From NCBI RefSeq assembly GCF_032854445.1, contig NC_088302.1, forward strand, positions 30,535,979-30,599,978: DNA of 64,000 nucleotides. The letters are read 5' to 3'. The notes below the pieces were generated by a model. It was not told where the DNA came from. It searched no databases and saw only the letters and a list, made by a program, of their open reading frames with translations. The translations under genes and the position numbers were made by a program. Below, in pieces: positions 267 through 55,700 of this stretch; the first letter of the stretch is position 1; the number at the start of each line of letters is the position of its first letter. This DNA comes from Liolophura sinensis (taxonomy: Eukaryota; Mollusca; Polyplacophora; Chitonida; Chitonidae).

Positions 267-2992
267 CTGATTAAAGTGACAAGAAAAAAAATGAAAAAGG
301 TATAATGAGATTAATTCCAGAGATTTCGTATATTACTAAATGTTAAAGAGCGTGTCTGTGTTATTTGTTATCCAAGCAACAGTATGTTAAGTGTGTATAG
401 AATCCCATATGCAGGGGAAGTAGTGTACCGGCGATGCAGGGCGGAAATCTGGATACCAATTGATGACCGTTCACGCATGTAAGGCTAAGTCGACTCCTTT
501 TCCATAAACACCACACAGAAACATACAAGGTTAGGAGGAAAATGGGTTATCTGTAGTTACTTTAAAATTATGGCGCAGTAATGCCACACTGAATCCTCAC
601 CTCCTTACTACTACATGTTTTCCATGCCAGCTCTTAATGGACTTATTCCCTTTGTATTAAATAACGACATCACACCTCAGTGCACCGGTGAGATTATCGT
701 TTCACTTGTGCTAGTATTCCAGGTATTATGCGCTGGGAAAACGCCCTAACATACCACGTACAGAAATAGCCCAATCTTTCACCTAGCCATTTTTTAACCG
801 GGACATTTCCCTTTATGCGTTAGTAGGTAAATGCTGTCAATTACACTCCAATCGACGAAATGGTCAACAGTTTATGTACGGACTATTGTGCCAATCTAGT
901 GAGGTAAAACGAGTTTAAAACATGCCGTTACTTGACAGTCAGGGAAACAAGGTGGGGCAATTAGCATTAGGTCTAATCGATCACCAATCGATTGAGGCGA
1001 ATCATGCTGTTAAACAGACAGCTTTATGATTGTCGTCACGTTTAGCCGTCCTCGTGTGGCGCGTTACTATGTTCGTACCTTCCTTAGGAGGTTGGAGTTG
1101 AAAAGCAGTTCTTCATAGTTGTTTGTGATTTATCCAGCTTAGGGAAGTGTTCTTCACCATGGTCTGTGTATAATTATCTGGCTTAGTGCTCAGGGTTTTC
1201 TTTACTGTAGCCTGCTTGTACTTACCTGGATTAGTGCTGAAGGTATTCTTCACTGTGGTCTGTGTGTACTTATCTGGATTAGTGATGAGAGTGTTTTTTA
1301 CCGTGGTCTTTGTGTACTTATCTGACTTAGTGGTGAGGGTGTTTTCGCCGTGGTTTGTGTGTACTTATCTGGCCTAGTGCTGAAGGTGTTCTTCACTGTG
1401 GTCTGTGAGTATTTATCTGGATTAGTGGTGATGGTGTTCTTCACTGTGGTCTGTGAGTATTTATCTGGATTAGTGGTGATGGTGTTCTTCACTGTGGTCT
1501 GTGTGTATTTCTCTGGCTTAGTGATGTTTGTGTTCTTCACTCTGGTCTGTGTGTACTTATCTGGCTTAGGGTGAGGGTGTTCTTCACTGTGGTCTGTGTG
1601 TACTTATCTTGCTAAGTGATGGTTTGTGTTCTTCACTGTGGTCTGTGTGTACTTATCTTGCTTAGTAGTGAGGGTTCTCTTTACTGTGGTCTGTGTGTAC
1701 TTATCTGTCTTAGCGGAGGTGGTGTTCTTCACTGTGGTCTGTGTGTACTTATCTGGCTTAGAAGTGAGGGTGTTCTTCACTGTGGTCAGTATGAACGTAT
1801 CTGGCTAAGTGGTGATGGTGTTCTTCACTGAGGTCTGTGTGTACTTATCTGGATTAGTGGTGATGGTGTTCTTCACTTCTGTGTGCTTACCTTGCTTGGT
1901 GGGGAGAGTGTTTTTCACAGTGGTCTGTGCATTCCTTAGTTCTCCATACACTCGGAAGGTTTCGAGTTGGGTGAGGAGATTGTTGGGGACAGGAGGCGGG
2001 GTACATCCAAGCCAAGGCTGTCGAGCATCAGTCGATCGTCCGAACACCGCTGTCCAAGTCCTTACCTGCGAGAAGCAAAAGTCAATCAACACATATTTTT
2101 TATTGGTTGATTATTATTTGCTGATTTATTTCTTTTTTAAAATATTTATGCATTTGACGTGTATGGCTGATAGAGATTGGACAGAGCCCATGGCTAAATA
2201 CCACAACTCCCCAGATACCCGACAAGCCTTCCAACATAAAGTCGCCGCCATCTTGCCACAAGAAACTACCACACCTTCTCAGACACCCGACAAACCTTCC
2301 GACATAAAGTCGCAGCCACCTTGCCACATAAAATTACCAAACCTTTCCAGATACCCGACAAACCTGACGACAGCCATTTTGCCAAGTGAGACAAACCTTT
2401 CCTCTCCGAGTTTCATTCGATACATTAGTCGAAAACAATCAACATACCTGACCATTAGTACACTTATTGATACATCGGTTTTGCCAAATCTCGTTCTCTT
2501 CACCCTCCTGTGGTGATTTGGGGTTAAAATTGATTGATTTTACTCGATACGAGCTCGTTGATCTTGCTCGGTGAAAAATCAGCAAAAATCTTTTGGATAA
2601 AGATGAAGTTTTGAGCTTGGAAAAAAAGGTTTAAAATCCATTATCACCATCATAATAAAAGACCGTGATTTCAGAAAGATTATTAACTCTTTTTCGCTGG
2701 AACACTTATTTCAGTACATCTACATATACAGTTACGTTGCTTTTCTGATCATACAGTCTGACAAACTGCCTCCCACCAACCTTCATTCGTTAGACAATCC
2801 ACATCATGCACATTCCAGCATACTTTGCTCTCGAATATTAATGAATTTCGTTCCTTTACTCACATACAATGTCAAGTCGCATAGCGCCTATTAGCATGCA
2901 AGTGTTTTCCAGCCTAACTGTAGGTTACTTCCAATTTCATGACTTACCTCAGCTGCTGAACCCTTGGTTAGAAGATTGGCTTTGGATGTCAT
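130..2992 (-). CDS. Unrecognised 118-residue protein, three-exon gene (whole gene span)
   Basis: I assembled three coding exons by splice signals and phase: 2992-2948, 2065-1891 and 266-130, totalling 357 nt including the TGA. Donors are GAG|GTAAGT and CAAG|GTAAGC; acceptors are CTCGCAG and TTTAATCAG. Phases join cleanly (0, then 1 plus 2). The protein starts MTSKANLLTKGSAAE and ends GKKVRQLAITY. It is small and basic toward the C-terminus (a YRQEMRKAGKK stretch) with a Pro-rich middle (GCTPPPVPNN). There is no signal peptide and no membrane segment, so it should be cytosolic or axonemal. I do not recognise the family. Matched phases over three exons make a real gene likely. The donor of exon 2 is the first unit of the minisatellite at about 1130-1930. 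Confidence 0.72.
267..1129. other. Intron 2 of the small gene, unique part
   Basis: Between the last exon and the minisatellite I see no open frame, RNA gene or recognisable repeat. Confidence 0.5.
1130..1930. repeat. 48-bp minisatellite growing out of an exon donor
   Basis: About 16 imperfect head-to-tail copies of a 48-bp unit (plus-strand core CTTCACTGTGGTCTGTGTG). Because 48 is a multiple of three, both strands stay open in patches (VFFTVVCVYLSGLVVR on plus, KNTITTNPDKYTQTTV on minus). The right-hand copy is the 3' end of exon 2 of the small gene with its splice donor. The open plus-strand frames are repeat artefacts. Confidence 0.9.
1891..2065 (-). CDS. Exon 2 of the small minus-strand gene
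   Basis: A 175-nt exon starting V-R-T-W-T after CTCGCAG and ending phase 1 at CAAG|GTAAGC. It contains RQPWLGCTPPPVPNNLLTQL. Its last ~40 nt (CACAGACCACTG to the donor) match the 48-bp minisatellite unit that continues into the intron. Without splicing, the frame reads on through about two repeat units before a stop near 1805. Confidence 0.72.
2205..2400. repeat. 68-bp imperfect tandem repeat, 2.7 copies
   Basis: Three successive copies share CAGATACCCGACAA..CCTTCC and AAAGTCGC..GCCA..TTGCCA. They lie in intron 1 of the small minus-strand gene (2066-2947). The remainder of that intron is AT-rich with nothing else recognised. Confidence 0.7.
2948..2992 (-). CDS. Exon 1 (coding part) of the small minus-strand gene
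   Basis: Fifteen codons from ATG (complement of 2990-2992) to GAG, followed by a strong GTAAGT donor. The ATG context is GAGCCATGA, with a purine at -3. The upstream 3000-3130 stretch is GC-richer than its surroundings and probably holds the 5' UTR and promoter. Confidence 0.7.
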
Positions 2993-3130
2993 GGCTCTCC
3001 CTGCTGGTGCAGAACGCTCTACAGCCACCTCTCCTAGCTGTATGGTAGATTGTACCGACTTTCACTGGTCAGTCAGTCTGTGCTGTGCGGGGCTCGCTCC
3101 AGCGTGAGGAAACCGAAGGCTTAACGTCAC

Positions 3131-3462
3131 GCTGGGCGAGCGGTGTTAAAACCGTGTAACACAGCTAATACTTTTGTCTGATTTTGTGGTAAGAATATCA
3201 GGTAGGTATAAATACAGCATAATGCAGCCCTAAATGCCAGACTTAATACATCATCAATACACGAGTATTTATGTGCCGTTTCAAGTGTTCTTTTTGAGCG
3301 ATTTATAGGTTTAGAGATAAGCTATATGCTGGAGCTTGTGTTGTAACCCATACAACCCAGCACTTAACCCCACTGAAAATATCTAATACCGCTTTGTAGA
3401 GTGTAGCATTGGCTGGCAGAACCATGTAATGCAGCTAGGTTACAGGTACAGTGATCATATAA
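3131..3462. other. Intergenic, nothing recognised
   Basis: Upstream flank of the small gene. A short inverted pair AGCGTGA/TCACGCT sits near 3100-3140. No coding or repeat family was identified. Confidence 0.4.
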
Positions 3463-3631
3463 TATTTATTTATTTATTTATTTATTTATTTATTTGATTG
3501 GTGTTTTACGCCGTACTCAAGAATATTTCACTTATACGACGGCGGCCAACATTATGGTGGGTGGAAACCGGGCAGAGCCCGCGGGAAACCCACGACCGTC
3601 CGCAGGTTGCTGGAAGACCTTCCCACGCATA
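3463..3631 (-). mobile_element. SINE family 1, 5'-truncated copy
   Basis: Starts with a (TTTA)n tail, then TTGATTGGTGTTTTACGCCG and the conserved body around GGAAACCGGGCAGAGCCCG. The tRNA-like head is missing. Confidence 0.85.
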
Positions 3632-4179
3632 ATAGTATATAAAATAATTTGAGATAAACAAATGAGTAATATACTGATGAGTCAAGTTGTTCAGAAACAA
3701 AGTGTCATCTTTTCAAGAAAAAGAGGTTTGTCTTGTACCTGGTGAAGGTTAGAGGTTTACTCCTATCACCTCGGTGACGTCCAACAATAAACCTGGCAGT
3801 CGTCATGTGAGTGAAAAAATATTGAGCACGGCGTAAAACACCGACCAGTCAATCAGTCAAGCAATCTGTCTATCTATCAATCAATTTATCTGGTTGGGAG
3901 TAATCGCCCTACTCTAGTTAATGACGAGAGTAACCAATCATCCATTAGCAGTCAAGTACCTAAAACATCTCATGAGAGTTGGAGTTGTCTGTATGCAACC
4001 TTTCAGCATGAAGGAATCAAACACCAAATCAGTCAATCAATCAATCAACTAACCAACCATGACCATGGGACGATGGCCTGCAAGAGGAATAACGCTTTGA
4101 GGTTAGCGAAAGAGCAAGCTATATATGTAGAAACCGAAAGTTTCCAAGTCATTTATTGAATCGCCTATTGTACATCACA

Positions 4180-4950
4180 GCACCAGCCTAAGTCTAAATC
4201 AATCGGAAGAATGATGAATAAATCAGGGATTTATTGACTTGTACAGAAGAACGTGGTTTCAAGGATGAAAGCGCATCGCAGAATCCATTTGCTCGTGGTT
4301 AATGAGGTGTGGCCTGGGAGTTATCTCCCGCTGTCTAAGCTGTTTAATTCACGTCTGCTTTCACACTACACTTTGCTCCTGTGAAATGGCGAAACAGGCT
4401 AAACCATTCAAACTTACACAGGTCGTCCTAACAAGCGTTCTGTTTTGTTCTTTTCTGTCTTTACTTATCTATTCGATTGGACGCCGTATACAAGAATACT
4501 TATCCTGTACGACGGCGGCCAGCATTATGATGAGGGAAAAAAACCCCCAAAAAAACCCCACGCCATCATCACGTGATTCATGACGATTACAGACAAGTAA
4601 GAAACGTAATAACAGCACCACTCTATGTTTAAATCGATCAGACGAATGATGAATAAAACAGGGATTGATTGACCTGTACAGAAGAGCGTGATCTCAAGGA
4701 TAAACGCGCCAAACAGAATCCATTTGCTCGTGGTCAATGAGGTATTGTCTCCCATTGTCTTGTCTATTTAATTCATTCTAAACTTTAGTCATATGGAATT
4801 ACGAACCGGCATAAACCATCTCACTGAAACAAGTCCTCCTCAGACGTGTTCTTTTTTTCTGTATTTATATATGTATGCGTTTGTATTTTCATGCCACACC
4901 CAAGGACATCTCTCCTACATGACGGCTGCCAACATTATGGTGAGGAATAA
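4180..4950. repeat. Tandem duplication of a ~430-bp segment
   Basis: 4185-4550 and 4615-4950 are diverged copies sharing GAATGATGAATAAA, TTGACTTGTACAGAAGA/GACCTGTACAGAAGA and CAGAATCCATTTGCTCGTGG. Each ends in a decayed SINE family 1 tail (near 4465-4545 and 4880-4945). A third trace of the junction (CGCCATCATCAC) occurs near 10832. Confidence 0.75.
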
Positions 4951-5095
4951 AAAAACTTGATTTTTTCTGTATAGTTGTCCTCCTACACCTTAAAAATGAT
5001 TTGTTTTTATACCGCTTGGAACCAAGCAGTTTAGGCGGAAATGCTTTTATTGCTTTTAACGAAATGGTCCTCGCATGAGCGGAAATTAGAGTGAG

Positions 5096-5450
5096 TGATT
5101 GAGTGCTTGGGGTTAAACATCTTATTTAACAATTTTTCAGTCATCTGACGACGAAGGAGTCCTTGGAGTGCATGTAATGTGACCCCTTGTTGCAGGACGG
5201 ATTTCCACCGCTCTTTTATCTAGTGCTGCTTCACTGAGACGCCTTACCGAAGACAAGTAAGCTGCCCCACCCGAGCCATTACACTGATATGGGTCAACCA
5301 GTCGTTGAACTATCCCCTTAATGCTGAAAGCCAGGCGAGGAAGGCGAGTCAACTTTTTTTAAGGTCCTAGGTGAGCCCCGACCCAGGATTGATCCTGGAT
5401 CTACCGCTCCCGAAGCGGATGCTCTACCAGCTGAGTTATCGGGACTGGTA
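5096..5450 (-). mobile_element. SINE family 2, full copy with tRNA-like head
   Basis: In reverse complement the head (5447 to about 5375) reads GATAACTCAGCTGGTAGAGC (A box) and GGATCAATCC (B box), like a tRNA. A body with GTTCAACGACTGGTTGACCC and AGAGCGGTGGAAATCCG follows, then a tail ending in AACCCCAAGCACTCAATC. It is a tRNA-derived SINE. The adjoining body argues against a functional tRNA gene. Confidence 0.82.
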
Positions 5451-5559
5451 ATCATCGAAATCAGAGCTGCATCTGTTTAATGGTGTGAATACCGATTGGA
5501 TCTGCGCCTCAATGGGTTGTTGTCTTTTTACACGGTGGTGAACTGTTGGAAACTATGCG

Positions 5560-5720
5560 CTGAAATAGACATTCGTATACCGGCCGTCAACCAAGAACCA
5601 AGCAATTCCCAAAACGACGTTTAACACAAACTACCAAATGACTAAGAAAGTATACTCAGTATGAAAATAGGACTTTATCATGCAAAGAGAAGCAGCCAAC
5701 AGTTTTGAATGATGTTGGAA
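5560..5720 (-). mobile_element. 3' end fragment of the RT retroelement
   Basis: Shares GACATTCGTATACC..CCGTCAACCAA and CATGCAAAGAGAA with the non-coding 3' region of the reverse-transcriptase elements at 42.2-42.5 kb and 47.5 kb. No coding part remains. Confidence 0.6.
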
Positions 5721-5741
5721 AGACGCAAGGTATGTTCTAGG

Positions 5742-6335: not shown

Positions 6336-6424
6336 ACGATGAATATACTGCCCCTAACCCCTAGCTCCAGGCTAAGCGAAATTAGACACCATCATGAAGC
6401 AGAGTGCCAGGGATTCTGGAGTGA

Positions 6425-6700: not shown

Positions 6701-6705
6701 GAGGT

Positions 6706-11562: not shown

Positions 11563-14500
11563 GTAAGTGTATCAATATACACTTTTTCACGTCTTCCTAT
11601 ACAAACAAAAACTACGTATTTATATGTGTGGAAATAAGTGTAAATTGAAACTAATCATCTTAATTAATTTGCATTTAAACTTTTATTTTATTGTAAAAAC
11701 ATTAAGTAATTTTTTTTTCTTAAAAGTTCCGTAACTGCCCGACCCTGTTATGATGTACGATACCGTTATAAATATAAACGCATGTATTCAAGCGAGGAGA
11801 ATTACGTACGGACGTAACGTATGTATTTTTGTTAACACATGTAATACATTTCATCTCAGCTGTTTATTGGGTTAGTATTTATAGTTGTGCTTTGGCATTC
11901 AAATCTTTGTCAGGCTGAGTTGATAAAAGCTTACACAGGAAGTGTAAGCACTTGGCGCTAAAACTGGTGAACACTGGAATAAATGTACTGCTACATATAG
12001 TAGGCCAAGGTGCTGCATACATTGGCGGTGAAAGCACAGAAATGATTGGAAATTAGGTAAACATAAATGTATGTGGTGGAAAAAATGAGATCAAAGATAC
12101 AGTAAACACTTGCGGGAATGTAGTGTAGAATGTATACACTAATGATGAAAGCGCTGAATTAATTAGATATTAGGTTAACACTTATGTGTGTAGAGGGAAA
12201 AAAATGAGATGAAAGATACGGTATGTAAGATAAACACATTATAGCCAGTAAAAACCTCCCGGGGTACATTAAAGAGGGTAGATAAAGACATTATATTATG
12301 GATAAATGGTAAGCACTATTGGTGAAATTGGCAAGCACTCAATCCCTAAAGAGGTACAAGTCATAAGTAAGTAAACACTACCTGCTGAGAACTGTAAATA
12401 CCGTTGAGTCCAATAAATATACATTGTTCTCTGTAAACCGCCAGCGGCATCCGTGGCTTAGTGGTTAGGGTACTAGCGTAGCACAATGACCCAGGAGCGT
12501 CTCACCAATGCGCTCGCTCTGAGTTCAAGTCTTATGCTTATGCTGGCTTCCTCTGCGGTCGTATTTGATTTATTTATTTATTTATTTGATTGGTGTTTTA
12601 CGCTGTAGTAAAGAATATTTCACTTATACGACGGCGGTCAGCATTATGGTGGGTGGGAACCAGGCGCAGCCCGGGGGAAACCCACGACCATTCGCAGGTT
12701 ACTGGCAGACCTTCCCACGTACGGCCGGAGAGGTCGTATTTGAGGAAGTCAGCCAGCAACTTGCAGATGGTCGTTGGGTTCCTCCCACCATAGTGACTGG
12801 ATGAAGTAAAATATTCCTGAGTACGGCGTAAAACACTAGTAAAATATATAAATAAATAATTGTTAACCACGAGAACTATAGTTGACAAATACACTTGGCA
12901 GTATTAAATTAAACGTACATACATTGGAAAGAGCTGCAAGGTCCATTAGATAAATGTGTGGAAGACATCGTTATAACTGCAGTGGTAAACTGAATAGGCC
13001 TATTGTACAACCTGTCTTTTCGTGGGGCCTTTATGACAATAAAGGAGGATAACTGCACTTGTGTTACCATTTTTCCAATCTAACGCTCCTTGGTGACAAT
13101 AAAGGAGGCCGACTGCGGCCGTGTGACCTTTTTTGCAATCTGACGTTCCTTGGTGACAATAAACGAGGTCGACTGCGTTCGTATCACCATTTTTGCAAGC
13201 TAACGTTCATTGGTGACAATAAAGGAGGTTGACTGCGCTCGTGTGATCATTTTTGCAACCTAACGTTCGTTGGTGACAATAAAGGAGGCCGACTGCACTC
13301 GTTGTACCATTTTTGTAATCTAACGTTCCTTGGTGACAGTAAACGAGGTCGACTGCGCTTGTATCACCATTTTCCCTCCAAGTCCACATGTCTTCCACCA
13401 GTATGCACGTCACACGTGGGAAAATTCGTTAGTAACTTGCCAAAGATCGGTGGTTTATATGTCGGGCACTTCGGTTTCATGCACGTACAAAACTGACCGC
13501 CATCGCCGTCAAATTCTTGAGTGTGACCTTAAACAATCAAATAAATTAATGAATAAATGGAGTATAATTATGGTATTTTGTTACAGGTTGCTTGGCCTCT
13601 TCGAGAGACGACCCTTCAGTAGAGTTGGCCAGACAAATTGCAGACGGAATCGAAGACCCACAGATACAAGTAAAAGGGATATACAAAGAATTTAACAACA
13701 GCTTTGACGAGGTTTTGTCGGGTTGGTTCCATGATATATTGATATACTTGATATGTTCTTTGAAAACAGCTTTAGATGCTGAGACACCCCATGCATGCTC
13801 GAATGGCTTCTCCCTAGAATCCATTATTGCGGATCAACAGTGAGGTTGCTGGTTCAAACGCAGCTCTCTCTGATTTCGCTGCAACTTTAAGGCAGGAGCT
13901 TATTTAGGTATCTCGCTGGTTGGGGAGATTTCCTTGACCGCCGTTATATATAATTACATGTGTCAAATTTTTTTCGACGATGTAAAATGCCAATCAGATA
14001 AGTTCCGGTGATTAAAATTGTTTTAGAACGATTTTTTCTCCATACAGTTGTGGTGGCTGTTTAGAAAACTACTAAGTTTTGCAGTGAAATATAAAACTTT
14101 TATACATTCACAAATATCTGTACAGAGTTCATGGACAATATATTTTTCTACCAAAAAGAGGACAATGGAAGATTAAATAACAGGCTGATAAAATCGATAA
14201 CTGGGTGCATGGAGTGAAAATGTCGGTGCAGCAATTCTTATTACTCTGATGTATAGAGAAAGTTCACTTTAAGGCCGTATATAATTTTCACATTTTCATT
14301 TTATTACTCTCTTCTTCAGCTTTTGAATTCCTGACCAGTGAGAATATTTCGGCCGTTGTCGGACCATTCCAGGAGACGTACGAAGTGATCACGGAAAGTT
14401 TGAAGATTCCATACCTAGCCACGACCTGGGTACCGCTCAAAACACAGTCTCTGCAGATTGTGCAGATCTATCCAGATGCCGAGACGTTCGAAGCTGCTGT

Positions 14501-17500
14501 TGTTGATGTTGTCAACTATTACTCATGGTCGCAAGTCACGGTTATTTATGATTCGAAGGAAGGTAACGACTCTAAGCGCACGTATATCCGCTTTTAATTC
14601 CTAGAAACAATGAATCAGAACTTTGATGAGCTTGATGTCTTTTAAGTGCTTTTATGTGCGTGGTGGGCCATCTGATAATTTTCTGTCATGTTTCGAGAAA
14701 CTGGACTGCTTCTCTTTACACGACTCTGCCTTAAAGGAGAAGAAAATTTAAAAACATGACACTATAGGCTGAAAAGAGCACATTTTTTTCTATCTGTTGG
14801 TGCCTGCTGCATAATATTGCGATTTTTCCTCGCCATACACGTAAAGTCAGAAAACGGAAAAGCTGGCATAAATGGCTTAGTCCATCGCGTCCTCGATCTT
14901 TAACACCCTGTAATTTATGCTGAGGGTGTGAGAGTCGTTAAAACTGCCGGCTTGTTCGTGTAAACTTGGAACCTACGTCCAACATTCCGGTTTCCGGATC
15001 ATCAAGCGGAAAACGAACTGAAAGAAGAGTTCTACCGGAAATGTACGAACTTCGCTTCGGAGGTTTCCGACGACAATTCTCCTCCTAACACAGAAGACTT
15101 TAGGACTAGTTCTTAGACAAAATGGAGTCGGCCACAGCGATTTTGGCGTTGACTTTATTTATAATTTATCAACTTGAGGTACATATTAGAATTTTTTATG
15201 GCAAGCGAGGAAATGCATACTCTTTTCAATGGTATATGTTTGTAATTTAAGTTTTCTTCTCCTTTAATTTCTTACCCTATATACCCTATATAGTTCTCTG
15301 ATGGTTACCGTTGAACGGTGTTTTTGAAATTGGTCTCGCGAATATTGATCCTGGTTGAGAGCTGTTATACGAATATCCGTTTCCAAGGCTTACATATTCA
15401 TCAGAATCTCTGCGGACATCAGCAAGTCCGCTGCATACCGTTTTTTTCTTTTAAGCTGAAAAATTGATTTAATGTATGTGCAGGGAGCCTTTCCTTTTAG
15501 GGTAAAAAGTTGATTTAGTATTTCCAGGAAGCCATTCCTTTTAAGCTAAAAAGTTAATTTACTGTTTCCAGGAAGCCATGTTATTGAGCAACTCTTACAT
15601 CGGCGGACTATAGACGTTAATGGGCACAAGGTGAGTGCTGTGGACAGCCAGGAAGGAGCCATGCAGCTGAAGGAGACTTTGATACAGATCCGGGACAGGG
15701 GCAGACTGGAAATCGTTGTTGTTTGCTCTCCATCAACCACGCACACAATTATTAAACAGGTGAATCAACGGTGGTTTCTGGTTTTGTTAACCAGGCACCT
15801 AAAGTCTCACATAAAACCCGAGATAACAGATGTTGTGTCGTAAAAAATTTAAGTGTGACGTAATAACAGCGGAAGCTTTTTGCTGCTGTCAACTTAGCTG
15901 ATAGTGGCAATAAAAAAAAGAAACAAAATGGCGAGATATTTTAATTCCTGTGCTCTCTAAATGGAAACGTTATTGCATAAATGCGTACAATAAAAAGTAA
16001 AAATAGCACTGTTGCTAATTGAAAAAAATAATTACACTCATGTAATAGTGTCCTGGCAGCATGTCTTTTATTTTTGGTGGACTGAAAGCCCCTTAACACA
16101 CTTAGGACACAGCTACTGCCACATTAGGAACACACAAATTTAACAGTGGACGAGATCTAGTATAACTAAAGACGTACAGCACAGAGAGTAAAACCAGAGC
16201 ATTGACGACAGTGTGATAACAGGCAAATGGTCATAAGCAACCGGTGAAATACGGTCACATGTCTATTTACCGTAGTTAAGGTTTTATTCTAAGTGTTCAT
16301 GCAAATACCTAAATAGGAAGAAATTTCACACCCACTAGCACTATGGCTTAAACAGATTAGGTGAAAAAAAAAATACAATTAGACAACATAATTATCCGTA
16401 CATTTTAGCTTATTTATTGATATACAAATGTACATTTATGTTTGGTTTACGCTTATCATCTTGCTATGTCATTCTACATTTGTTGAAATTACCTATATCC
16501 ATTTTGTCCATTGTTTCCATAGGGGTTATATTTGGGATTGCTGTCAACCAGAAACAAATGGCTCATAGTGAACATGGTAAGACTTGTGATCTTGGGGAAA
16601 ATCTTATAAAATAAAGAGATTTTTATATTGTATACATCCCCTCGAGCTCTACAGGTTTCCTTGCACTATAATGCTGGTCGCCGTCGTATAAGTGAATATT
16701 CTTGAGTACAGCGTAAAACACCAATCAAATAAACAAAATAAATAAATATATTGTACACAAAACTGAATATTAAGGGCAAATGTAGTATTACCTTGACGAA
16801 TGTTGATCTAAATGCCAAAATATACGTAGTACTGCCACATTACCGTGGTGGATCATTCAACGGACGATCCTGCAATTTGCATATGAATGATCTAAGCGAT
16901 TTGCATAAAAGTCTTCAGGGTAAAATAAGTACACAATGCCATGAAATTATGGCAAAACTTTTTATTTGTTGATATTTACATCCCATTTCATTCGTTTACA
17001 CATAACTGTCATCGTGTTGGACTGAACACCATTGACCTCTATGTTCTATAGTAAAGTGTAGAAAAACACTGCCAAATGGTTGTCTTACTGCAACATCGAG
17101 TTTCTGGCAAAACTGTTTACAGTCACAAAACACTCATGTATGTATTATCAGATTAGTGAAAGGCTTTGTGGATTGCAGTGACAGTGCACAGGCCTAACAT
17201 ACACATAACCCATTTCTGAACGTCTCGTCCCGACATCCCTGAAATGTTGTCGATTTGACATAAATTTGATATTATACCGATACACCATGGCCATTGGGAT
17301 ATCGGTCTACATGAGATACTGCCAAGGCAGAATGTGGTGCAGTAGATCAGGTGGTGAGACATTAATTTCATCAAGTTGATCAGGCAAATTTGTGTTCAGG
17401 CACCCGGAAGTTTGCTCATGGTTCCTCAATCCAACCTACTGAACTGTATCTCCACATATATTTAACAAGATTTATTGATTTGTCCGGTGTCTTTTTTTTT

Positions 17501-26500: not shown

Positions 26501-29028
26501 TTATATAACTTTTTATATAAATTTTTGACTACGCCATTAAACACCAATAAAACTGATAAATTAATTATACAGAAATATTTCCGAGATATCTGTGGAAGGA
26601 ACGCTCTTCGTTCGTCACATTTTACGGAAATGGCAAACTTGTGCATCAGTAAGCACTTACACCAGTGAAATTCAAAGAATATCTTGGATTGTTGTCAGAT
26701 GGTGGGGGCGTTCTGGTTGCCCGGATATGAAGCAGACGGCGTCCACGAAGGAGCTTGAGTTTAAGAATGTGGCGGGAATTTTTCTGGTACTCGCGGGAGG
26801 GGTGATCTTATCCGCTCTCCTTTGTGTCGCCAACTTCATCATTTACAAACGGAAAGAGGCAGTCAAGGTGAGATCTGCATGGGTATTGAGTAAACCAGTC
26901 ATAGTGAGATCTGCAGGGGTGTTGATTAAACCAGTCAAGGTGAAATCTGCATGAGTGTTTATTAAACTAGTCAAGGCGATATCTGCATTAGTGTTGATTA
27001 AACCAGTCAAGGTGCGATCTGCATGGGTTTGGATTAAACCAGTCAAGGTGAAATCTGCATGTTTGTTGATTAAACCAGACAAGATGAGATCTGATTATTG
27101 ATTAAAACAGTCAAGGTGAGATTTGGTTATTGATTAAAACAGTTAGGGTGAGATCTGGGTATTGATTAAAACAGTAAGGGTGAGATCTAGGGATTGATTA
27201 AACCAGTGAAGGTGAGATCTGCATGTGTATTGATTAAACCAGTCATAGTGAGATCTGCATGGGTGTTGATTAAACCAGTCAGGGTGAGATCTGCATGAGT
27301 GTTGATTAAACCAGTCAAGGTGATATCTGCATGAGTGTTGATTAAACCAGTCAAGGTGCGATCTGCATGGGTTTGGATTAAACCAATCAATGCGATATCT
27401 GCATGGGTTTGGATTAAACCAGTCAAGGTGAGATCTGCATGTGTGTTGATTAAACCAGACAAGATGAGATCTGATTATTGATTAAAACAGTCAAGGTGAG
27501 ATCTGGGTATTGATTAAAACAGTTAAGGTGAGATTTGGGTATTGATTAAAACAGTAAGGGATAGATCTAGGTATTGATTAAACCAGTCAAGGTGATATCT
27601 GCATGGGTGTTGATTAAAACAGTCAAGGCGATATCTGCAGGAGTGTTGATTAAACCAGTCAAGGCGATATCTGCAGGAGTGTTGATTAAACCAGTCAAGG
27701 TGCAATCTACATGGGTTTGGATTAAACCAATCAAGGCAATATCTGCATGGGTTTGGATTAAACCAGTCAAGGTGAGATCTGATTATTGATTAAACCAGTC
27801 AAGGTGATATCTGGGTATTGATTAAAACAGTTAAGGTGAAATCTGGGTATTGATTAAAACAGTAAGGGTGAGATCTGGCTATTGATTAAAACAGTAAGGG
27901 TGAGATTTGGGTATTGATTAAAACAGTAAGGGTGAGATCTGGGTATTGATTAAAACAGTTAAGGTGAGATCTGGGTATTGATTAAAACAGTAAGGGTGAG
28001 ATCTGGCTATTGATTAAAACAGTTAGGGTGAGATTTGGGTATTGATTAAAACAGTTAAGGTGAGATTTGGGTATTGGTTAAAACAGTAAGGGATAGATCT
28101 AGGTATTGATTAAACCAGTCAAGGTGATATCTGCATGGGTGTTGATTAAAACAGTCAAGGCGATATCTGCAGGAGTGTTGATTAAACCAGTCAAGGCGAT
28201 ATCTGCAGGAGTGTTGATTAAACCAGTCAAGGTGCAATCTACATGGGTTTGGATTAAATCAATCAAGGCAATATCTGCATGGGTTTGGATTAAACCAGTC
28301 AAGGTGAGATCTGATTATTGATTAAACCAGTCAAGGTGATATCTGGGTATTGATTAAAACAGTTAGGGTGAAATCTGGGTATTGATTAAAACAGTAAGGG
28401 TGAGATCTGGCTATTGATTAAAACAGTAAGGGTGAGATCTGGCTATTGATTAAAACAGTTAGGGTGAGATTTGGGTATTGATTAAAACAGTTAAGGTGAG
28501 ATCTGGGTATTGATTAAAACATTCAAGGTTAGATTTTAGCGCTATAGATAGTAGATTATCCATGAAGAAAACTTAGAAGCCTAACATTTGAGCGGCGAGG
28601 ATGCTTAGAGTAAGTAAAGAAGGCATTGCCATTCTTTTAATTAATTCTCTAACATTTAGACGTAATATGCAGAGTAGCATGGACTTTAACATCGTTAATA
28701 TTATATGCGTTTCTTGCCCTTGAAAATCAAAAAATTCTGCTAACTATATCGAAAAATTATGTATTTGAGATCAGAATAATGCACATGTTTTTTTTACTAA
28801 AACCAGGAGGCGTTAAGCCATAATCATTCATTCTACAAGTAGTAATTATACATATCACATCGAGTATAAGCAGTTTTGTCCAGCGTTTGCCACCTTATTA
28901 TTTGAATAGACCCTCACATTTTATCATTTCCTCACCAGAGCCGGAAGAAAGTCTCGGAAGAGAATGCTTGGCCATTAAAATCGGAGAACAACAGCAGCAA
29001 ATGGTATCCGGATTCATCTTACAGCTGA
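11469..29028 (+). CDS. Ionotropic glutamate receptor 1 (iGluR-1), 12 exons
   Basis: Exons: 11469-11562, 13587-13721, 14320-14562, 15572-15759, 16523-16576, 17510-17689, 18530-18634, 19358-19486, 22339-22545, 23068-23894, 26699-26867, 28939-29028. Together they give 2421 nt, about 806 residues. Order: signal peptide (residues 1-24), amino-terminal domain (to ~350), S1 (~370-490), M1 (~498-518), pore loop (~535-552), M3 with IYTANLAAFLTL (~573-585), S2, M4 (NVAGIFLVLAGG), short cytoplasmic tail. It should be a plasma-membrane ligand-gated cation channel subunit. Binding-site residues: Arg460 kept, Ile614 for the usual Thr, Asp662 for the usual Glu. The Q/R site is Arg545. The LBD disulfide Cys pair is present (SRCDLLEIG, RSGCPD). 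All junctions are canonical except after exon 9 (GA in place of GT). It is AMPA/kainate/delta-like; the exact subclass is uncertain. Confidence 0.9.
11563..12443. other. iGluR-1 intron 1, left part
   Basis: AT-rich. Two diverged ~120-bp copies lie around 12010-12130 and 12130-12240 (GTGGAAAAAATGAGATCAAAGATAC-like core). No coding potential was seen. Confidence 0.45.
12444..12840 (+). mobile_element. SINE family 1 carrying a nested SINE
   Basis: The host SINE runs on the plus strand: head 12444-12557 (CATCCGTGGCTTAGTGGTTA), body resuming at 12733, tail ACGGCGTAAAACACTAGTAA. It is split by the inverted copy at 12569-12732. Confidence 0.85.
12569..12732 (-). mobile_element. SINE family 1, 5'-truncated, nested in another SINE
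   Basis: Antisense copy beginning (TTTA)n TTTGATTGGTGTTTTACGC and ending TACGGCCGGAGAG. GTCGTATTTGA flanks it at 12558-12568 and 12733-12743, so it inserted into the older SINE. Confidence 0.88.
13025..13385. repeat. 60-bp tandem repeat, about 6 copies
   Basis: TTGGTGACAATAAAGGAGG recurs every 60 bp (13092, 13152, 13212, 13272, 13332, with a diverged first copy near 13032). It lies in intron 1 of iGluR-1, about 200 bp before exon 2. Its minus-strand open frame is an artefact. Confidence 0.93.
13587..13721 (+). CDS. iGluR-1 exon 2: start of amino-terminal domain
   Basis: Acceptor TTGTTACAG. Encodes CLASSRDDPSVELARQIADG and KGIYKEFNNSFDEVLS. Donor TCGG|GTTGGT gives phase 1, which joins exon 3 as ..EVLS-A-FEFLTSEN.. 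. A weaker alternative donor (CAA|GTAAAA at 13669) breaks the frame into exon 3. Confidence 0.8.
14320..14562 (+). CDS. iGluR-1 exon 3: amino-terminal domain
   Basis: TTCTTCAG acceptor and GAAG|GTAACG donor. Encodes FLTSENISAVVGPFQETYEV, IPYLATTWVP and VVDVVNYYSWSQVTVIYDS. These match the family's 'IGP' turn, the 'IPxxxTxW' strand and the 'YxxWxxVxxxYD' helix-strand of the ATD. Confidence 0.93.
14731..15267 (+). mobile_element. MITE with 15-bp terminal inverted repeats
   Basis: TTAA flanks both ends (14731-14734 and 15264-15267). Left end AGGAGAAGAAAATTT, right end AAGTTTTCTTCTCCT. No coding capacity. Sits in intron 3 of iGluR-1. The TTAA duplication suggests a piggyBac-type donor; a TA duplication cannot be excluded, since TTAAAGG/CCTTTAA contains both. 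Confidence 0.88.
15572..15759 (+). CDS. iGluR-1 exon 4: amino-terminal domain
   Basis: Acceptor TTTCCAG, donor AAACAG|GTGAAT, phase 0. Encodes HVIEQLLHRRTIDVNGHK, then GAMQLKETLIQIRDRG and LEIVVVCSPSTTHTIIKQ. An internal CAAG|GTGAGT at 15630 looks like a donor, but the frame reads through and the downstream sequence matches the family. Confidence 0.9.
16523..16576 (+). CDS. iGluR-1 exon 5: 54-nt micro-exon
   Basis: GLYLGLLSTRNKWLIVNM between TTTCCATAG and ATG|GTAAGA. Phase 0 on both sides and identical in length to exon 5 of iGluR-2. Corresponds to the 'LGM(L/M)xxxYxxIxT' strand of the ATD. Confidence 0.88.
16650..16748 (+). mobile_element. SINE family 1, tail fragment
   Basis: TATAATGCTGGTCGCCGTCG to AAACACCAATCAAATAAAC plus an A-rich tail. 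In intron 5 of iGluR-1. Confidence 0.82.
17510..17689 (+). CDS. iGluR-1 exon 6: amino-terminal domain
   Basis: Acceptor TACCTGCAG, donor AAGACG|GTATTT, exactly 60 codons, phase 0. Encodes GTEEANLTDFVDSNANVTIL and SILHDAIHVYAAMTRNV, the latter matching the 'LxxDAxxVxxxA' helix. Potential N-glycosylation at ANLT and ANVT. Confidence 0.92.
17690..18529. other. iGluR-1 intron 6
   Basis: AT-rich, with no recognised repeat family or open frame of interest. Confidence 0.5.
18530..18634 (+). CDS. iGluR-1 exon 7: end of amino-terminal domain
   Basis: 105 nt, phase 0/0, the same length as exon 7 of iGluR-2. VTVHGCTGALQVIPGGTRGN aligns without gaps to IQLNGLSGNLQFDDNGFRTN there, i.e. the family 'GLTGxIxFxxxGxR' element. 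Donor GCC|GTGAGT. Confidence 0.88.
19358..19486 (+). CDS. iGluR-1 exon 8: ATD to S1 linker
   Basis: 43 codons, acceptor TGTTACAG, donor ATA|GTAAGT. Starts KGTW (family 'xGxW') and ends RRTLIVTTKI, the strand opening the ligand-binding domain. Confidence 0.92.
19530..19660 (+). mobile_element. Probable tRNA-derived SINE fragment (other family)
   Basis: CGTGGCCCAATGGCTAAGAG resembles an A box and TCCTGAAATCAAATCCAG a degenerate B box. In intron 8 of iGluR-1. The family was not identified. Confidence 0.5.
20706..21285 (+). mobile_element. MITE, complete copy
   Basis: TTAA at 20706-20709 and 21282-21285 flanks AGGAGAAGAAAACTT and its exact inverse AAGTTTTCTTCTCCT. 572 bp internal. Same family as 14731-15267 and 5961-6335. 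In intron 8 of iGluR-1. Confidence 0.92.
21286..22338. other. iGluR-1 intron 8, right part
   Basis: AT-rich. A short direct repeat AACGTAGCTCGCTTCGATTA / AAGGTAGCTCGCTTCTG lies near 21731-21770. No gene seen. Confidence 0.45.
22339..22545 (+). CDS. iGluR-1 exon 9: S1, with a GA 5' splice site
   Basis: Acceptor CACTTTCAG. Encodes EKPYVQW, LEGYCIDILRELAYRFGF, YLVPDGKFG and WTGMIRELKDK, the S1 core. Taking the end at AAG|GAAAGT gives 207 nt, identical in length and phase to exon 9 of iGluR-2 (GGG|GTGAGT), and a gap-free join (RELKDK-RADIAMAPF). This makes the intron begin with GA. The alternative is a GTTACA donor at 22559 with a 2-nt acceptor shift, which adds four residues. Confidence 0.82.
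23068..23894 (+). CDS. iGluR-1 exon 10: S1 end, M1, pore, M3 and S2
   Basis: RADIAMAPFSVTPER carries the glutamate-carboxylate Arg (residue 460). M1 runs over VWVSIFISFLAASFVLFAIS. The pore loop WAALLRGGTSG has Arg at the Q/R site (CGT, 23365-23367). M3 has IYTANLAAFLTL in place of SYTANLAAF. S2 has YGTVDGSQIEYFF (Ile614) and YAFLWDS (Asp662). The exon ends AAACG|GTAAGC, phase 2, joining the RWWGRSGC of exon 11. Confidence 0.95.
23895..26698. other. iGluR-1 intron 10
   Basis: 2.8 kb of non-coding DNA. It holds a ~360-bp fragment of the RT element's 3' region near 25660-26030. Otherwise no gene or repeat family was recognised. Confidence 0.55.
25660..26030 (+). mobile_element. RT retroelement 3'-region fragment
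   Basis: TTGAATTAGACTGCCACGTT, CTGCTTCTCTTTGCATGATT and ATTATTGACTTGCAACGTCC match the non-coding 3' part of the element copy at 42.2-42.5 kb. No coding part. Confidence 0.65.
26699..26867 (+). CDS. iGluR-1 exon 11: M4
   Basis: Acceptor TTGTTGTCAG. (CG)A-TGG-TGG gives RWWGRSGCPD, then LEFKNVAGIFLVLAGGVIL (M4) and a basic stop-transfer YKRKEAVK. Donor GTCAAG|GTGAGA. The last ~8 exon bases and the donor form the first unit of the minisatellite at 26860-28530. Confidence 0.93.
26860..28535. repeat. 36/32-bp minisatellite built on an exon donor
   Basis: About 45 copies. Long unit 36 bp (CAGTCAAGGTGAGATCTG, then CATGGGTGTTGATTAAAC). Short unit 32 bp, lacking part of the CATGGGTG segment. Nearly every unit repeats the AAG|GTGAGA donor of exon 11. 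36-bp runs are open as 12-residue repeats on both strands (e.g. VKAISAGVLIKP). A ~532-bp block is itself duplicated (near 27551 and 28083). Confidence 0.95.
28939..29028 (+). CDS. iGluR-1 exon 12: C-terminal tail
   Basis: Acceptor TTCCTCACCAG. SRKKVSEENAWPLKSENNSS, then KWYPDSSYS and TGA. Phase 0, matching exon 12 of iGluR-2, which begins ERKEESAD. Confidence 0.85.
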   Translation, partial: SRKKVSEENAWPLKSENNSSKWYPDSSYS

Positions 29029-29444: not shown

Positions 29445-29905
29445 AGGATGTACGGACTCCTGCACACTATATCACCAATCCGGGGCATACAGACTCCTGC
29501 ACACTGTATGACCGATCCAGGATATACAGACTCCTGCACATTATATGACCGACCCATGATGTACAGACTCCTGCACACTGTATGACCGATCCAGGATGTA
29601 CGGACGCCTGTACACTACATGACCAGTCCGGGGTGTTCTGACTCCTGTACACTATATGACCAATCCGGGATGTACGGAGTCCTGTACACTATATGACCAA
29701 TCCGGGATGTACGGAGTCCTGTACACTGCATGACCAATCCGGGGTGTACTGACTCCTGTACACTACATGACCAATCCGAGGTGTACAGGCTCCTATACAC
29801 TATATGAACAATCCGGGGTGTACGAACTCCTGTACAGTACATGACCAGTCCGAGGTGTACAGGCTCCTGTACACTATATGACCAATCCGGGATGTCCTGC
29901 ACACT
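29445..29905. repeat. 37-bp minisatellite downstream of iGluR-1
   Basis: About 12 copies of GACCAATCCGGGATGTACGG..AGTCCTGTACACTATAT. It lies 0.4 kb after the iGluR-1 stop, within or beyond the 3' UTR. Minus-strand open frames here are repeat artefacts. Confidence 0.93.
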
Positions 29906-49700: not shown

Positions 49701-52700
49701 CTCCTGCAGCAAGGAGAAAGTTACATACCCTCGAAGGACTCCTTCGTCGTCATATGACTGAAAAATTGTTAAGTACGACGTTAAACCCCAAGTAATCAAT
49801 CATTCACTAACTCGCTGCCTGATTTGATTAATAATACCCATTCCAAAAATCTATTCATCTAATTCAAGTATTTATGCTCAGTCAGTAACACTGTAATATA
49901 TGTAGAGCTGCAATTGTTTACTTGAATACGAAACAGCGTTAGTGAAGTGACGTAAAGAGGGAATTTATTCACACAATGAAAATTTTTAACGGTGTTTTTC
50001 TGATTTCTCTTTCGATAGCCCATTCCCGTTCCATTACGCAACGTCTACATGCTACAATCGGTCGCTTCGACACCGCATTGGCGATGGCATCAGAGAGACT
50101 AGGCATGGCCTACTTGATCATAGACGAGACATCAAATCTGGACTATCCCAACGTCTTCCACATGGGGCCTAGAATGGGCGACGTGTCACAAGCGTTCGCT
50201 GACGTCATCAAGTATTACAAATGGGAGAAAGTTGGGGTGTTTTACGACAACGAATTCGGTATGTTGTCGCATGCTTAACCATAACCTATACTATACATTC
50301 TTCATTAAACGGCTGCTAGTCTACGTCATAAATCCTTTCTTAGACTTCTTGAGCCAATTCCTCGAAACCATTTCTGACTTAAGTCAAAATTTGAAATATG
50401 ATTTTAAAGCTTATTTTTGGGCTTTAGAAATATAAATTTTGTCCGACTCATCTGTGTTAGGCCTATCTTATTAGACGTACGTGTCCAAATTTCAACTTCT
50501 AGCATCAGAAAATAAGGTTCGTAAACTGTGACTTAAGTCAGAAACAGCTTTGTGGAGTCGACCCCAGGGATAATATATGATTGCGTTCTATGTACTAGTT
50601 TATCTGTGACAATTCAAAGGAAGCTTCTTGAAATCCACTCGGTCAGAACATTGCTGTGTGCGCGCATGAAATGAACTTTCTGACATCTGAGCAGTGCGCA
50701 TTGTCATACATATCAACAACTGTGCGCACTGTATAAGCATGTGTACACACTTATTTTGGATAACAAATTCAAAAGTTTGATTTGAGAGTGATGGACGTAT
50801 CGAGTATCAGTTATATCTTCCTGAGTATATAGTTAAAACGACCGTGCATCTCTTTGACATGTAAAATGTCGTTTTCTCCATATTGCATATGTAGGTATAA
50901 TCTTGTCTGTTATATATGCGTATATGTCAGTGTAGAAGTATATTGTTGTCTGTTGAAGAGGCATTACGTTGTATGTTGTACAGGTACGTTCGTTGTTTGT
51001 TGAACAGGCATGTCGTTGTATGTTGTACAGGTACGTCGTTGTTTGTTGAACGGGCATGCCGTTGTATCTTGCAGTTGTTGAACAAGTATGTTGTTACCTT
51101 TTGTACAGGTATGCCGTGTTCTGTTGAACAGGTATGTCGTTGCTGGAGAAGTTGATTGGTCTTAGCGACTTTACGGTGAAAGCCTGGAGAATCTCGGACA
51201 AGACGCGTGAGAGGGAAATACGGGATTTTCTGATACAGATGAGAAAGCTGTGGATACAGAAAGTTGTTCTCTTTTGTTCGCGTTTGAAAATCCAAACCGT
51301 TGTGCACCTGGTGAGCCACCCTTAAACGATGAAGACAAAATCAGTACTATTCGAAGGGCCACTGTGCCATTAACTAACCTTTAGAGTATTTGCTGCACCA
51401 TAAAAAAAATTGAAAATAGGGTAAAATAGGCTAGCTTTTCCAATATCTAACCTATGTAAAGATACGTCACTTTCTTTATAAGATATTTAGATATGTATAT
51501 ATGGAACACATATACATGGTTAATTTCTGTGAAACCATCTTTGATGAAATACCTTAAGATCATTTCAATAAGCTTCAGTAGATAGCTCCAAATAATGTGA
51601 AAAAAATTTGGACAATTTTGGTATCAAAACCTCACCAAAATTCCTTTATGCCATTTCTCGCTGAGAAAAAATATAAAAAGATAATTTAAGATTTGTTTGG
51701 ACACAGCCTTCTGTTTTGCTTTTAATTTGAGGCACAAACTCATATTTACTTCAAAGTTTTTCCGATAAATACAACGGTGCTTATTTCTCCCTACCGCCTA
51801 ACTCCAGATAATTCATGGGTTGCATAGTGTTTATTTCCCGCCATTTTTTTATCTGTAACATCAGTCGTCTGTTTATAAATTACAACCTCATGTACTAGTA
51901 CTGTGATTGTAAGGTATAAACCTTATTGTAATAGGTTTGCCTATATCGTAGGCCCCTACGTTCGAACAGCTTTATTTCTTAATTTGACAGAATCAACAGA
52001 ATTATTGTGTACATGTTGAATATTCAAAAGACGTAATGTCGATGCTTATTCCAATCTCCATTATGCAGGCAAGGAACTTCGCCATGATGACTCCGCCATA
52101 TGAGTGGACATTCTATAACACGGTATGTACAGCTAATACTTTCCACCGCCAGCAATGCAAGGGAGATAATTCACATGGGCACATGGAGCGTTTACCAGTT
52201 TGGCCGATCGATCCCAGCTTATGTTAGATGGAGCATTATGATGAATAATTCACCGTGATAGACCAGGCCTGATGTTCTAGGCCGATTTTGGGTGTCTCTA
52301 GTTTGCACGCTCAAACAAGAAATGATAATAACAAATCTTTCATATATCCAAAATAGGCCTAATTTGGTTTGTTTTGCGTGGAATTGTTTTTGAAAGGTTA
52401 GATCAGGCTCTGATATTTCCACGTAATCGTTGAGGGCCAAAATTATATTGCTTGAACCATTGCATACGTGTGGCTCAGTGCATAGTTTATAGAGTATGTT
52501 GTATGAAAAAAACAATGATGTTCAAAAAAACTTTCGAAGTATTAAAAATAGGGTGCTCGCTCATCTGAAAATGTACTGATTTTTGTCTGCTGTCTCTTCT
52601 ATTTAGGACGGCGAATACTGGAGTACCTTCTCTATATTGGAAGACTTACAAAGTAACGTTACCATTGTGAGCTTTACTGAACTGGAAAAGGTCACGTCTC

Positions 52701-55700
52701 GGTCAAGGCCAATAGCGAGCGTTCTCACAAGGAAATTGGCACGTGACGCGCTCCAGGCCATTCTCATTACAGCAGATAGGGTAGACATGTCGGAGTTGTT
52801 TCAGCCACAGACTTACCGTGACGGGAAACTGCGAGAGACCATTCTAACTGAGCTGCCCAGGGTAAAATATTAAAATATGTTTTATAGAATATGGCTTCAG
52901 ACGTGAGCTTTGTCATACAGAAATACCACAACTTTACTGGATTCCTAAAATGCATAAATCCCTATACAAGGCTCGATTTATTGCAGGTTCAAGAAGCTGT
53001 ACCACCAAACTCTTGTCAACCCTACTTACGAGAGCGTTACAAGAAGTAAAGTCATTTTGGAATAAGTATTGCTGTGCCATAACAAAAAATTCAGGTGTCA
53101 ACTGCATGTGGATCCTTAACAACTCCAAACATCTTACAGAAGAACTCCATGCTCATATGCATATACCGTACAAAGACGTATCCACATGGGATTTCTCTAC
53201 TCTCTATACTACGATTCCTCACAAAGATCTTATTGAAAGATTATCGTCGTTAATTGTCTCGGTATTTACTAAAACTGGTCACCATTACATTAACGTCAGA
53301 AGCAATAAGGCTTTCTTTAGTTCTACTCTTTATAAAGGTTACCACTCATGGGATGTTACAGTATTTATTGAATTACTTGAATTTCTCATTAATAACATCT
53401 ATGTGAAATTCGGAGATACCATTTACCAACAGTGCATAGGTATTCCAATGGGTACCAATTGTGCGCCTCTTTTGGCAGACCTATACCTGTTTTCATATGA
53501 ATACGACGATATGCAGAAATTACTTAAAAGTAATATCTTTAAAGCTCGATCCTTTTCATTTACCAAGCGGTATATTGATGATCTATTGGCGTTAAATAAT
53601 CCCCACATTGCTGAAGAGGTGAAGGAAATCCTTCCGCCTTCATTGGATTTAAAGGAGACAACGGATAGTCCTGATGGTGGGCCCTACATCTTATTTGGAT
53701 CTATATCTGTACAAAGACGGACAAGGTCTCCTTTCACGCCGCCTTTACGACAAAAGGGATAATTTCAATTTTGATGTTGTAAATTATCCTTATTTAGATA
53801 GCAATATACCAAAGGGTCCTGCATATGGCGTATACATAGGCCTATCTCGCCTTGTAGCATTTGTCATATCTTGCGTTAATTGTGATGACTTTAATCTGCG
53901 TCACAAGTTGCTAGTTCAAAAACTAGTTTGTCAAGGATACTCCATCAAACGCCTTCATTCTAAGTTTCTCAAATTTTACAATGAATATAACACTCTCGTT
54001 GGCAGGTATGGACAGAGCGTACAGAATCTCTGGCGATCTGCATTGTGATGAACCACATAGACGGCGCTGTTATCCCTATGTACATGTCTATGACGTACAT
54101 GGTATTTAACAACATAGATGGCGCTGGTTGCCCAGTGTAACCGTCTATCGTGTATGTCATGTGTAACATCATAGATGGCGCCTCTTGTAGCATGAGATCT
54201 TAACATATTAAGGGAAAAGACGTAATCGTCCGTTACTTTTGAATCATAATCTGATCGGTTAGGGTCTGTAACGCTCGTCATTTTCAAACTGTATCTAGTA
54301 TCGTTGTTTTGGAAATGGATCTTGCGATTATCGACTTGGAACGCCCTTTACGGACTACGACTGGTATAGGAATGTCGGATTCGACGCTTATATTGTAAAT
54401 AATGTGGTAGGTTTATGTTTGTATAAACTATAGACTCTTGACACATTTTAAGACTCGTCCGCAAAGAACGGTTTGAAATATCACTTTGTTTCTTTACAAC
54501 ATAAGTTAACCAAAATCTACGATGAATGCTAGACCAAAGACTTCACCTTCGATCCAATATGTGGCCATCACGTAAGCGACATCCAAATGTCGTACTGAAG
54601 GTGGAGTCTTTGGTCTAGGTGAATACAAAATGTTTTCACAAAAAATATATCCTCGCCACGTGCGGCTCAGTCATTTAACGGTTGTTTTGCAAATGTTCCT
54701 GATAATCAACGCAGAATGTTGACCAACTAAATTTTTTGTATCAGATATCAACGTTTTACAATCCTTGTATGGTTGCAGATACAGTTAAATGGGTTGAGTG
54801 GTAATCTACAATTTGACGACAACGGTTTTCGTACTAACGTCACTTTACATGTGTCCCGTATTGCCGAAAACAACTCGGTTACGGTAAGAAATATCTTCGT
54901 GTTACACGTGTTTCGTATATTGCCGAAAACAGTCCAGCTAACTGTAAGAAGTAACGCCACGTTACAGGTTTCTCGTACTTAAGAAACAGTCCAGTAATGG
55001 TAAGAACAAGACTACAGGTATTTTATGGCATAATCAGACATTGCGACATTAAGAGCCGGGGAGCTCTGCTGCGCTGTCCAGTCTTTCAATGTCGCATAAT
55101 CCTGTAGACATTGCCACATAGTGGGAACAGGATGTCGGCTACATCTTCCGTTGGACACTGCGTTTCATGTCTGGGACGAATGTTAGCTTTGGTGATTAAT
55201 CCATTTAACGCCTAGGCATTTTGCGGGAAGGCTGATGTATACTTAGTCAAGTATGAAGTTATTTTAGTCAAGATCTTAAAAATTTTTAAAAATCGGTTTT
55301 ACACCAAACACAAATATATTTCTCAGTGAAACGTACAGTAAACGTACACACAACCAGGGGACGGCCCCCTGGCCTAGAGCTGCGGTAAACATATTTCAAT
55401 GGGTACTTAAAGAAAAACCTTCAGTAACAAATTGAACAATATTTGATCGCACAGGCATGCCTTGTTGGGGCGGTGCGATATTATAGGAAAGTTTATATCT
55501 ATGTTACACTAATCTGAAACCGATCATAATGCATGATCAGCTTGTATTTGGCAAATATTGCATCTAGTTCATTTTACTGATCCCAAATAAAACCTTTTTT
55601 GTCGATATAATAATTGTTTTCTTCCCGCACAGATTGGTCAGTGGGCTTCGGACACCCAGTTCAATGGCAGTAGTTTAGATTTGCAGAAATTACCCAATGG

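Follow-up and report, generated by a model that had tools for sequence, protein, structure and literature searches.

Genes at the locus

The DNA analysed here, referred to throughout as the window, is a 64-kb stretch of the Liolophura sinensis genome (C8:30535979-30599978), and the genome searched alongside it comprises 609 Mb in 632 contigs. Exon edges were placed by reading frame, phase, and homology. Two of the genes in the window, iGluR-1 and iGluR-2, encode ionotropic glutamate receptors (PF00060 and PF10613 in both, PF01094 in iGluR-1) and are tandem paralogs. The third is a small gene on the minus strand.

The exons of iGluR-1 that matter here, all on the plus strand, are exon 3 (14320-14562; ANF_receptor, PF01094, E 2.9e-7; donor phase 1 by frame reading), exon 4 (15572-15759), across whose start the protein runs on as IYDSKEG|SHVIEQLL, the M4 exon (26699-26867; donor GTCAAG|GTGAGA), and the last coding exon (28939-29028; SRKKVSEENAWPL..., with the stop codon at its end). 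In iGluR-2, on the same strand, they are exon 4 (51132-51310; protein VFYDNEFG|MSLLEKLI), exon 7 (54779-54883; donor TTACG|GTAAGA), and the M4 exon (59210-59387), which matches that of iGluR-1 and is followed by an array-free post-M4 intron.

The small minus-strand gene is beta-thymosin-like; the phases of its three exons fit together, and the reading frame closes with a stop. Exon 1 (2948-3055, outer end provisional) contains the start codon, exon 2 (1891-2065) ends at the donor CAAG|GTAAGC, and the coding part of exon 3 (130-266) includes the stop codon. The donor at 1891|1890 is supported because the join of exons 2 and 3 falls within the Thymosin match (PF01290, residues 56-79, E 4.7e-6).

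Arrays at splice junctions in the window

An earlier note on this DNA had claimed that four splice junctions in three genes are each the founding unit of a tandem repeat. All four are confirmed, their units contain the exon edge, and we add a fifth that the earlier list lacked. These arrays are minisatellites at exon-intron boundaries, that is, tandem units of roughly 10-100 bp in which the unit holds the exon edge. Each edge was tested by comparing a 50-mer spanning it with the 300 bp of adjoining intron, and the score was set against 300 shuffles; at none of the five array edges did any shuffle reach the observed score (0/300 in each case).

Case (a) is an array of a 48-bp unit on the minus strand (1147-1929; 16.5 copies by TRF; edge self-match 45), founded on the exon 2 donor of the beta-thymosin-like gene at 1891|1890. 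Case (b), on the plus strand like all those that follow, is an array of 36/32-bp units (26860-28534; about 49 copies, with TRF giving 36 bp and 49.4 copies; score 46), founded on the iGluR-1 M4 donor at 26867|26868. Case (c) has a 23-bp unit (50945-51142; score 40; TRF rows of 23, 47, and 78 bp) and ends on the iGluR-2 exon 4 acceptor, AACAG|GTATGTCGTTG, at 51131|51132. Case (d) is a diverged triplicate of the end of iGluR-2 exon 7 together with its donor (54836-55012; edge 54883|54884; score 32); it is not among the TRF rows at score 40 and was identified by the edge 50-mer score and by alignment of its copies. Case (e), the addition, consists of three copies of a 44-bp unit (15448-15579; score 51) that carries TTTCCAG|GAAGCCAT and ends on the iGluR-1 exon 4 acceptor at 15571|15572. 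Reckoned from the edge coordinates, the arrays reach into the exon by about 39 nt in (a), 8 in (b), 11 in (c), and 48 in (d), and the introns that hold the five arrays are 749-2071 nt long.

The contrast with other edges is sharp. The test covered 34 window edges (17 + 17), a set drawn from the exons that were located, which leave aside gene starts and part of the middle exons in the amino-terminal domains; the iGluR-1 exon 2 donor was tested one base off (13722). Five of the 34 duplicate into the intron (scores 32, 40, 45, 46, and 51), whereas the other 29 score 12-21; the highest of these, the acceptor at 14319, scores 21 and is matched by 8/300 shuffles. By the same test there is no duplication at the donor of small-gene exon 1, the acceptor of small-gene exon 3, the acceptor of the last coding exon of iGluR-1, or the donor of the iGluR-2 M4 exon. 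The matches of the edge 50-mers to the adjoining intron also bear out the earlier description of the anatomy, in which one end of the array is the exon edge and the copies run into the intron.

The homologous exon 4 acceptor thus carries an array in both paralogs; by eye, the 44-bp unit of one and the 23-bp unit of the other are unlike. As an observation apart, the 48-bp unit of case (a) corresponds to 16 codons and includes a thymosin core (QTTVKNT...TK).

The same anatomy elsewhere in the genome

Exons outside the window were sampled by family search (Lig_chan, and the unrelated SNF transporters) and not by their repeats. The same anatomy recurs at seven more arrays in genes of the iGluR family and in SNF-transporter genes, giving 12 arrays in total with those of the window and a range of unit lengths of 23-106 bp. 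In all seven the unit contains the exon edge. Three of them are at acceptors: L043 (73-bp unit), L037/L062 (34-bp unit), and L069 (57-bp unit). The other four are at donors: L053 (106-bp unit, 2.2 copies), L061 (52-bp unit), L065 (47-bp unit), and, in an SNF gene, L093 (51-bp unit, with only about 5 exon nt in the unit).

Two of these units can be read closely. The L062 unit, CAG|AACGCTACTCTGGC, comprises the acceptor and the exon start and encodes (Q)NATLA where iGluR-2 in the window encodes QNATMSVAPL. The L065 unit comprises the exon end, encoding KNGTNLWAMFS, plus GTGAGT, and the stretch examined holds eight exact donor strings, the working one included. Since the coding part of the L065 unit is conserved between paralogs, the copies spread from the exon edge into the intron. 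Edge arrays are real, commoner than first reported, and of a known kind.

L061 and L065 are tandem paralogs at C1:6.22-6.31 Mb, and their homologous donor carries arrays of differing unit length; the other sampled paralogs of the cluster gave no flagged array at that donor.

Several neighbouring arrays were left out of the founder type. Those at the L060 acceptor and the L092 donor merely abut the edge and could have spread to it, the array at the L045 donor begins about 15 bp into the intron, the one at the L093 acceptor stands about 37 bp from the edge, and those at the L110 and L112 acceptors stand about 7 and 22 bp away. The abutting array at L060 (hit 1501-1692, minus strand) has 10 copies of a 20-bp unit that appears to supply the acceptor CTTTATGATTTCAG of its exon; this exon contains an NMDA-receptor-like motif.

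Age of the introns

Tandem duplication of segments bearing AGGT is an established route to new introns in a few genes: it has been described for ATP2A1, potato RdRp, and fission yeast (PMC4974935, PMC3629103), and for Drosophila cases (PMC2891723). The likeness to our arrays is that a segment with splice signals is duplicated in tandem, and the potato case, as described, straddles an intron-exon boundary. The difference is that those duplications yield a new intron, whereas here the intron pre-exists in the testable cases. The suggestion in the earlier note that the introns themselves arose by duplication of AGGT-bearing exon segments finds no support wherever it can be put to the test, because the tested introns occur in paralogs that either have no array or have dissimilar ones, and we consider such an origin highly improbable.

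The post-M4 intron, where the iGluR-2 M4 exon serves as the comparison for case (b), is present in both window genes within one codon (in phase 0 at both donors, 34 residues past the start of the NVAG motif in one gene and 35 in the other, with the last iGluR-2 exon read in a provisional frame), and its array is found in iGluR-1 only. Likewise, both window genes have the intron of the L037/L062 array, each time without an array. The exon 3/4 intron of cases (c) and (e) lies at the same position and in phase 1, after YDSKEG in iGluR-1 and YDNEFG in iGluR-2, in paralogs whose arrays differ; as both paralogs bear an array of their own at this place, no relative lacking one was seen for these two, and a search of a C6 paralog for the junction found exon 3. 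In each of the five window introns, moreover, the duplication is at one of the two edges only, which also argues against intron gain.

In favour of gain one might cite case (c), where the exon 3 donor GTATGTTG resembles the exon 4 start GTATGTCG. We rejected this likeness as a sign of intron gain, as it is mostly donor consensus. The evidence on age covers the introns of (b), (c), (e), and L062; at those of (a) and (d) gain may have some room. Looking in iGluR-1 and in the sampled loci for a counterpart to the intron between iGluR-2 exons 7 and 8 gave weak matches only. Vertebrate beta-thymosin genes have an intron near the place of case (a). Where they can be checked, then, the introns look older than the arrays.

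Dispersal of the introner type was looked for with the array of case (b), the sole case tested: a DNA search of the genome gave one match, the array itself, in a search that is weak because simple repeats and very common words are skipped.

Are exon edges special?

The earlier note had also proposed a recurrent process acting at junctions. Junctions have indeed founded minisatellites repeatedly; a special process there is possible, with flat coverage and a weak excess of founders outside the window to judge it by. We caution against taking the coincidence of array ends with exon edges as evidence alone, and we rejected it as such, since far extension into a coding exon would damage it and any array that reaches an exon therefore ends there. 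A fair test has to ask how coverage changes with distance, or how many founding units there are. Under the first model arrays spread through introns, and what is compared is the share of sequence in arrays at each distance from the exon. Under the second, only the founder can include the edge, and the expectation is array density multiplied by unit length.

Coverage was measured at 147 domain-internal exon ends outside the two window genes, which were excluded: 102 from 67/99 Lig_chan matches at 48 loci (28/30 from the profile search plus 20 chosen from the list before their sequence was seen) and 45 from 26/110 SNF matches at 20 loci (the first 20/82 regions in contig order). At 38 donor ends the Lig_chan match broke off at profile positions 109-121, about 50 nt before the true donor, and these ends were accordingly shifted by 51. 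With donors so corrected, arrays cover 5.0% of sequence at 0-20 bp from the edge, 6.8% at 20-120 bp, 5.5%, 3.9%, and 5.2% in the bins from 120 to 400 bp, and 7.3% and 8.9% beyond, to 1400 bp. Counted by edges, an array is present at 0-20 bp in 9/147, compared with 10/147 at 100 bp, 7/147 at 200 bp, and 8/147 at 300 bp. There is thus no coverage peak at the exon edge among the 147, before or after the donor correction. In the window, 150/2000 random non-exon positions (7.5%) score at least 32, so that 5/34 edges gives P 0.11.

For the founding-unit count a later SNF sample was added, taking every fourth remaining match (21/84), of which 4 were dropped for size and 17 used. The test ran on hand-entered values for 178 edges and 35 arrays (an exact count of the edges gives 147 + 32 = 179), with a density input of 33 arrays in 143 kb plus 2 in the last 17 loci, all outside the window. 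Only flagged ends were read by eye there, and duplications as weak as case (d) would be missed. The L037/L062 acceptor is of founder type and stands outside the 147 edges (its hit begins at profile position 3), and ANF_receptor loci were scanned for arrays and kept out of the counts.

Six of the 178 edges are founders, against 1.9 expected if the smallest period is used (P 0.013) or 2.9 with the best-scoring one (P 0.078). With five cases, whether L061 and L065 are treated as one event or the marginal L093 is dropped, the values become P 0.044 and 0.175; with four cases (L061/L065 merged and L093 dropped), 0.125 and 0.339. None of the 17 exons fetched last is of founder type. In the window the four TRF-detected edge arrays compare with 0.21 expected (P 7e-5), a figure to be read in the knowledge that the window is the discovery set. 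The excess outside the window is suggestive only.

These counts bear on a biased birth of arrays at junctions, under which exon edges would make tandem duplications several times commoner and only those straddling the edge would survive. Exonic base composition, nucleosomes, breaks linked to transcription or splicing, and shared CAG/GT microhomology would be candidate causes. The founders above expectation speak for it, as do the apparently independent arrays of both tandem paralogs at the homologous exon 4 acceptor. Against it stand the flat coverage at the 147 edges, the window coverage test (P 0.11), an excess that fades with five or four cases, the last 17 exons, and a splice site that has no fixed register in the unit. 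On balance we think such a bias possible but doubtful. In its broadest form, a few percent of exon edges, and thus thousands, would carry junction-founded minisatellites, several-fold commoner than inside introns, and a biased process would multiply splice sites and lengthen introns from their ends; this, too, we regard as a rather unlikely outcome.

Probable birth of the arrays

The reading we prefer, and consider probable, is ordinary minisatellite birth at the edges of pre-existing introns, tolerated as the exon-proximal copy stays available to splicing. A stretch of 23-106 bp that by chance straddles the edge of an existing intron would duplicate in tandem, and the founding duplication would then expand by slippage or unequal exchange. 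If splicing keeps to the copy nearest the exon, the protein would be unchanged and the other copies would be intronic and free to multiply. Edge duplications would survive because splicing can go on using this exon-nearest copy. The mutational mechanism, the actual use of splice sites, and selective near-neutrality are the inferred parts of this scheme.

Two observations describe the units themselves. It is the exon-side copy that agrees with the conserved protein. The exon share of the unit ranges from 0.10 to 0.77 over the 12 arrays and is not distinguishable from uniform (KS P 0.38, on values read by eye); since it is spread so widely, between roughly one tenth and three quarters, the duplication breakpoints do not lie at the AG/GT. 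Such variable breakpoints fit ordinary tandem duplication near an edge.

Against ordinary birth, the random model expects fewer edge founders than are seen, both outside the window (1.9-2.9 against 6) and within it (0.21 against 4). If arrays grow by insertion of copies alone, coverage should dip near the exon, and the flat profile could then hide an excess at the edge.

As to which copy is spliced, exon-defined exons are reported to favour, among sites equal in strength, those that lie closest to each other across the exon, although in the classical experiment, with two sites in competition, the intron-proximal one prevails (PMC9225289). Exon-proximal use in long introns is a prediction of the exon-centric proximity rule set out in that source (PMC9225289).

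Known counterparts are found in human genes. In genes of segmental duplications, minisatellites (internal tandem repeats) have been described at exon-intron boundaries, with 27 intron modifications (PMC2812944). As in our arrays, the units there (about 30 bp) repeat across the splice boundary and lengthen introns. The human cases differ, as far as described, in belonging to recent paralogs, in being often polymorphic, in having transcript evidence, and in including some putative new introns; the testable introns here are old and known from sequence alone. In the earthworm, metallothionein introns contain minisatellite-like repeats that lie, as far as described, away from the edges (PMC12783039). 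No genome-wide test of array founders at the exon edges of invertebrates was found among the matches listed in the open-licence literature, a weak negative.

Multiplied splice sites

That the arrays would offer many decoy splice sites, as first suggested, holds up in the counts of donor and acceptor strings in (b), L062, and L065. Including the working site in each case, there are 24 copies of GTGAGAT in (b) and 13 of [TA]TCAGAA in L062. In case (a), CAGATAAG occurs 7 times exactly against 2 for AGGTAAG (working site included), and since it outnumbers the intact site 7 to 2, the GT has often gone. The minisatellite of IFI6/6-16, a mammalian gene, reportedly supplies multiple splice donor sites from a shorter unit, and several of its donors are said to be used. 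Like it, our donor arrays have a donor site within the tandem unit and hence many candidate donors.

Copies further in might also be used as exon. Arrays would then be partly exonic, with inner copies used alternatively to give variable protein inserts or tails, as in the human boundary repeats, for which alternative transcripts are reported (PMC2812944). In (a) the exon frame runs on for slightly less than two units before it meets a stop; in (b), where the cytoplasmic tail would be affected, it is open for about 2.3 units, and in (d) it extends into the third copy. Stops follow, however, in the arrays whose frames were examined, and units of 34, 47, or 52 bp, for example, do not divide by three, so we give this reading very little credence.

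The copies of one junction, if nearly identical, would make a natural test of spliceosome choice among anything from a few to about 49 competing sites. An intron-centric rule would select an inner copy and disrupt the protein, and an exon-centric rule the outer one (PMC9225289). Arrays founded at an edge also illustrate one way for introns to grow from their ends.

Other features of the window

After merging, the TRF rows give 12 arrays in the 64-kb window (period at least 12, length at least 45). Among the repeats away from the junctions, a 60-bp array at 13034-13373, with open 20-residue periods, stops some 215 bp before iGluR-1 exon 2, on its upstream side, and lies off any edge. A 37-bp array occupies 29449-29895, some 420 bp past the stop codon of iGluR-1, and may belong to the 3' untranslated region. 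The intron between exons 6 and 7 of iGluR-2 holds a 298-aa open frame (52866-53759, plus strand) with a weak match to reverse transcriptase (RVT_1, E 9.5e-5, bits under the Pfam cut-off). Finally, one interspersed element, presumably a mollusc SINE, is copied at 3455-3650, 12523-12800, and 57858-58140; the first two copies were likened by eye, and the third also matches L062 and L063.
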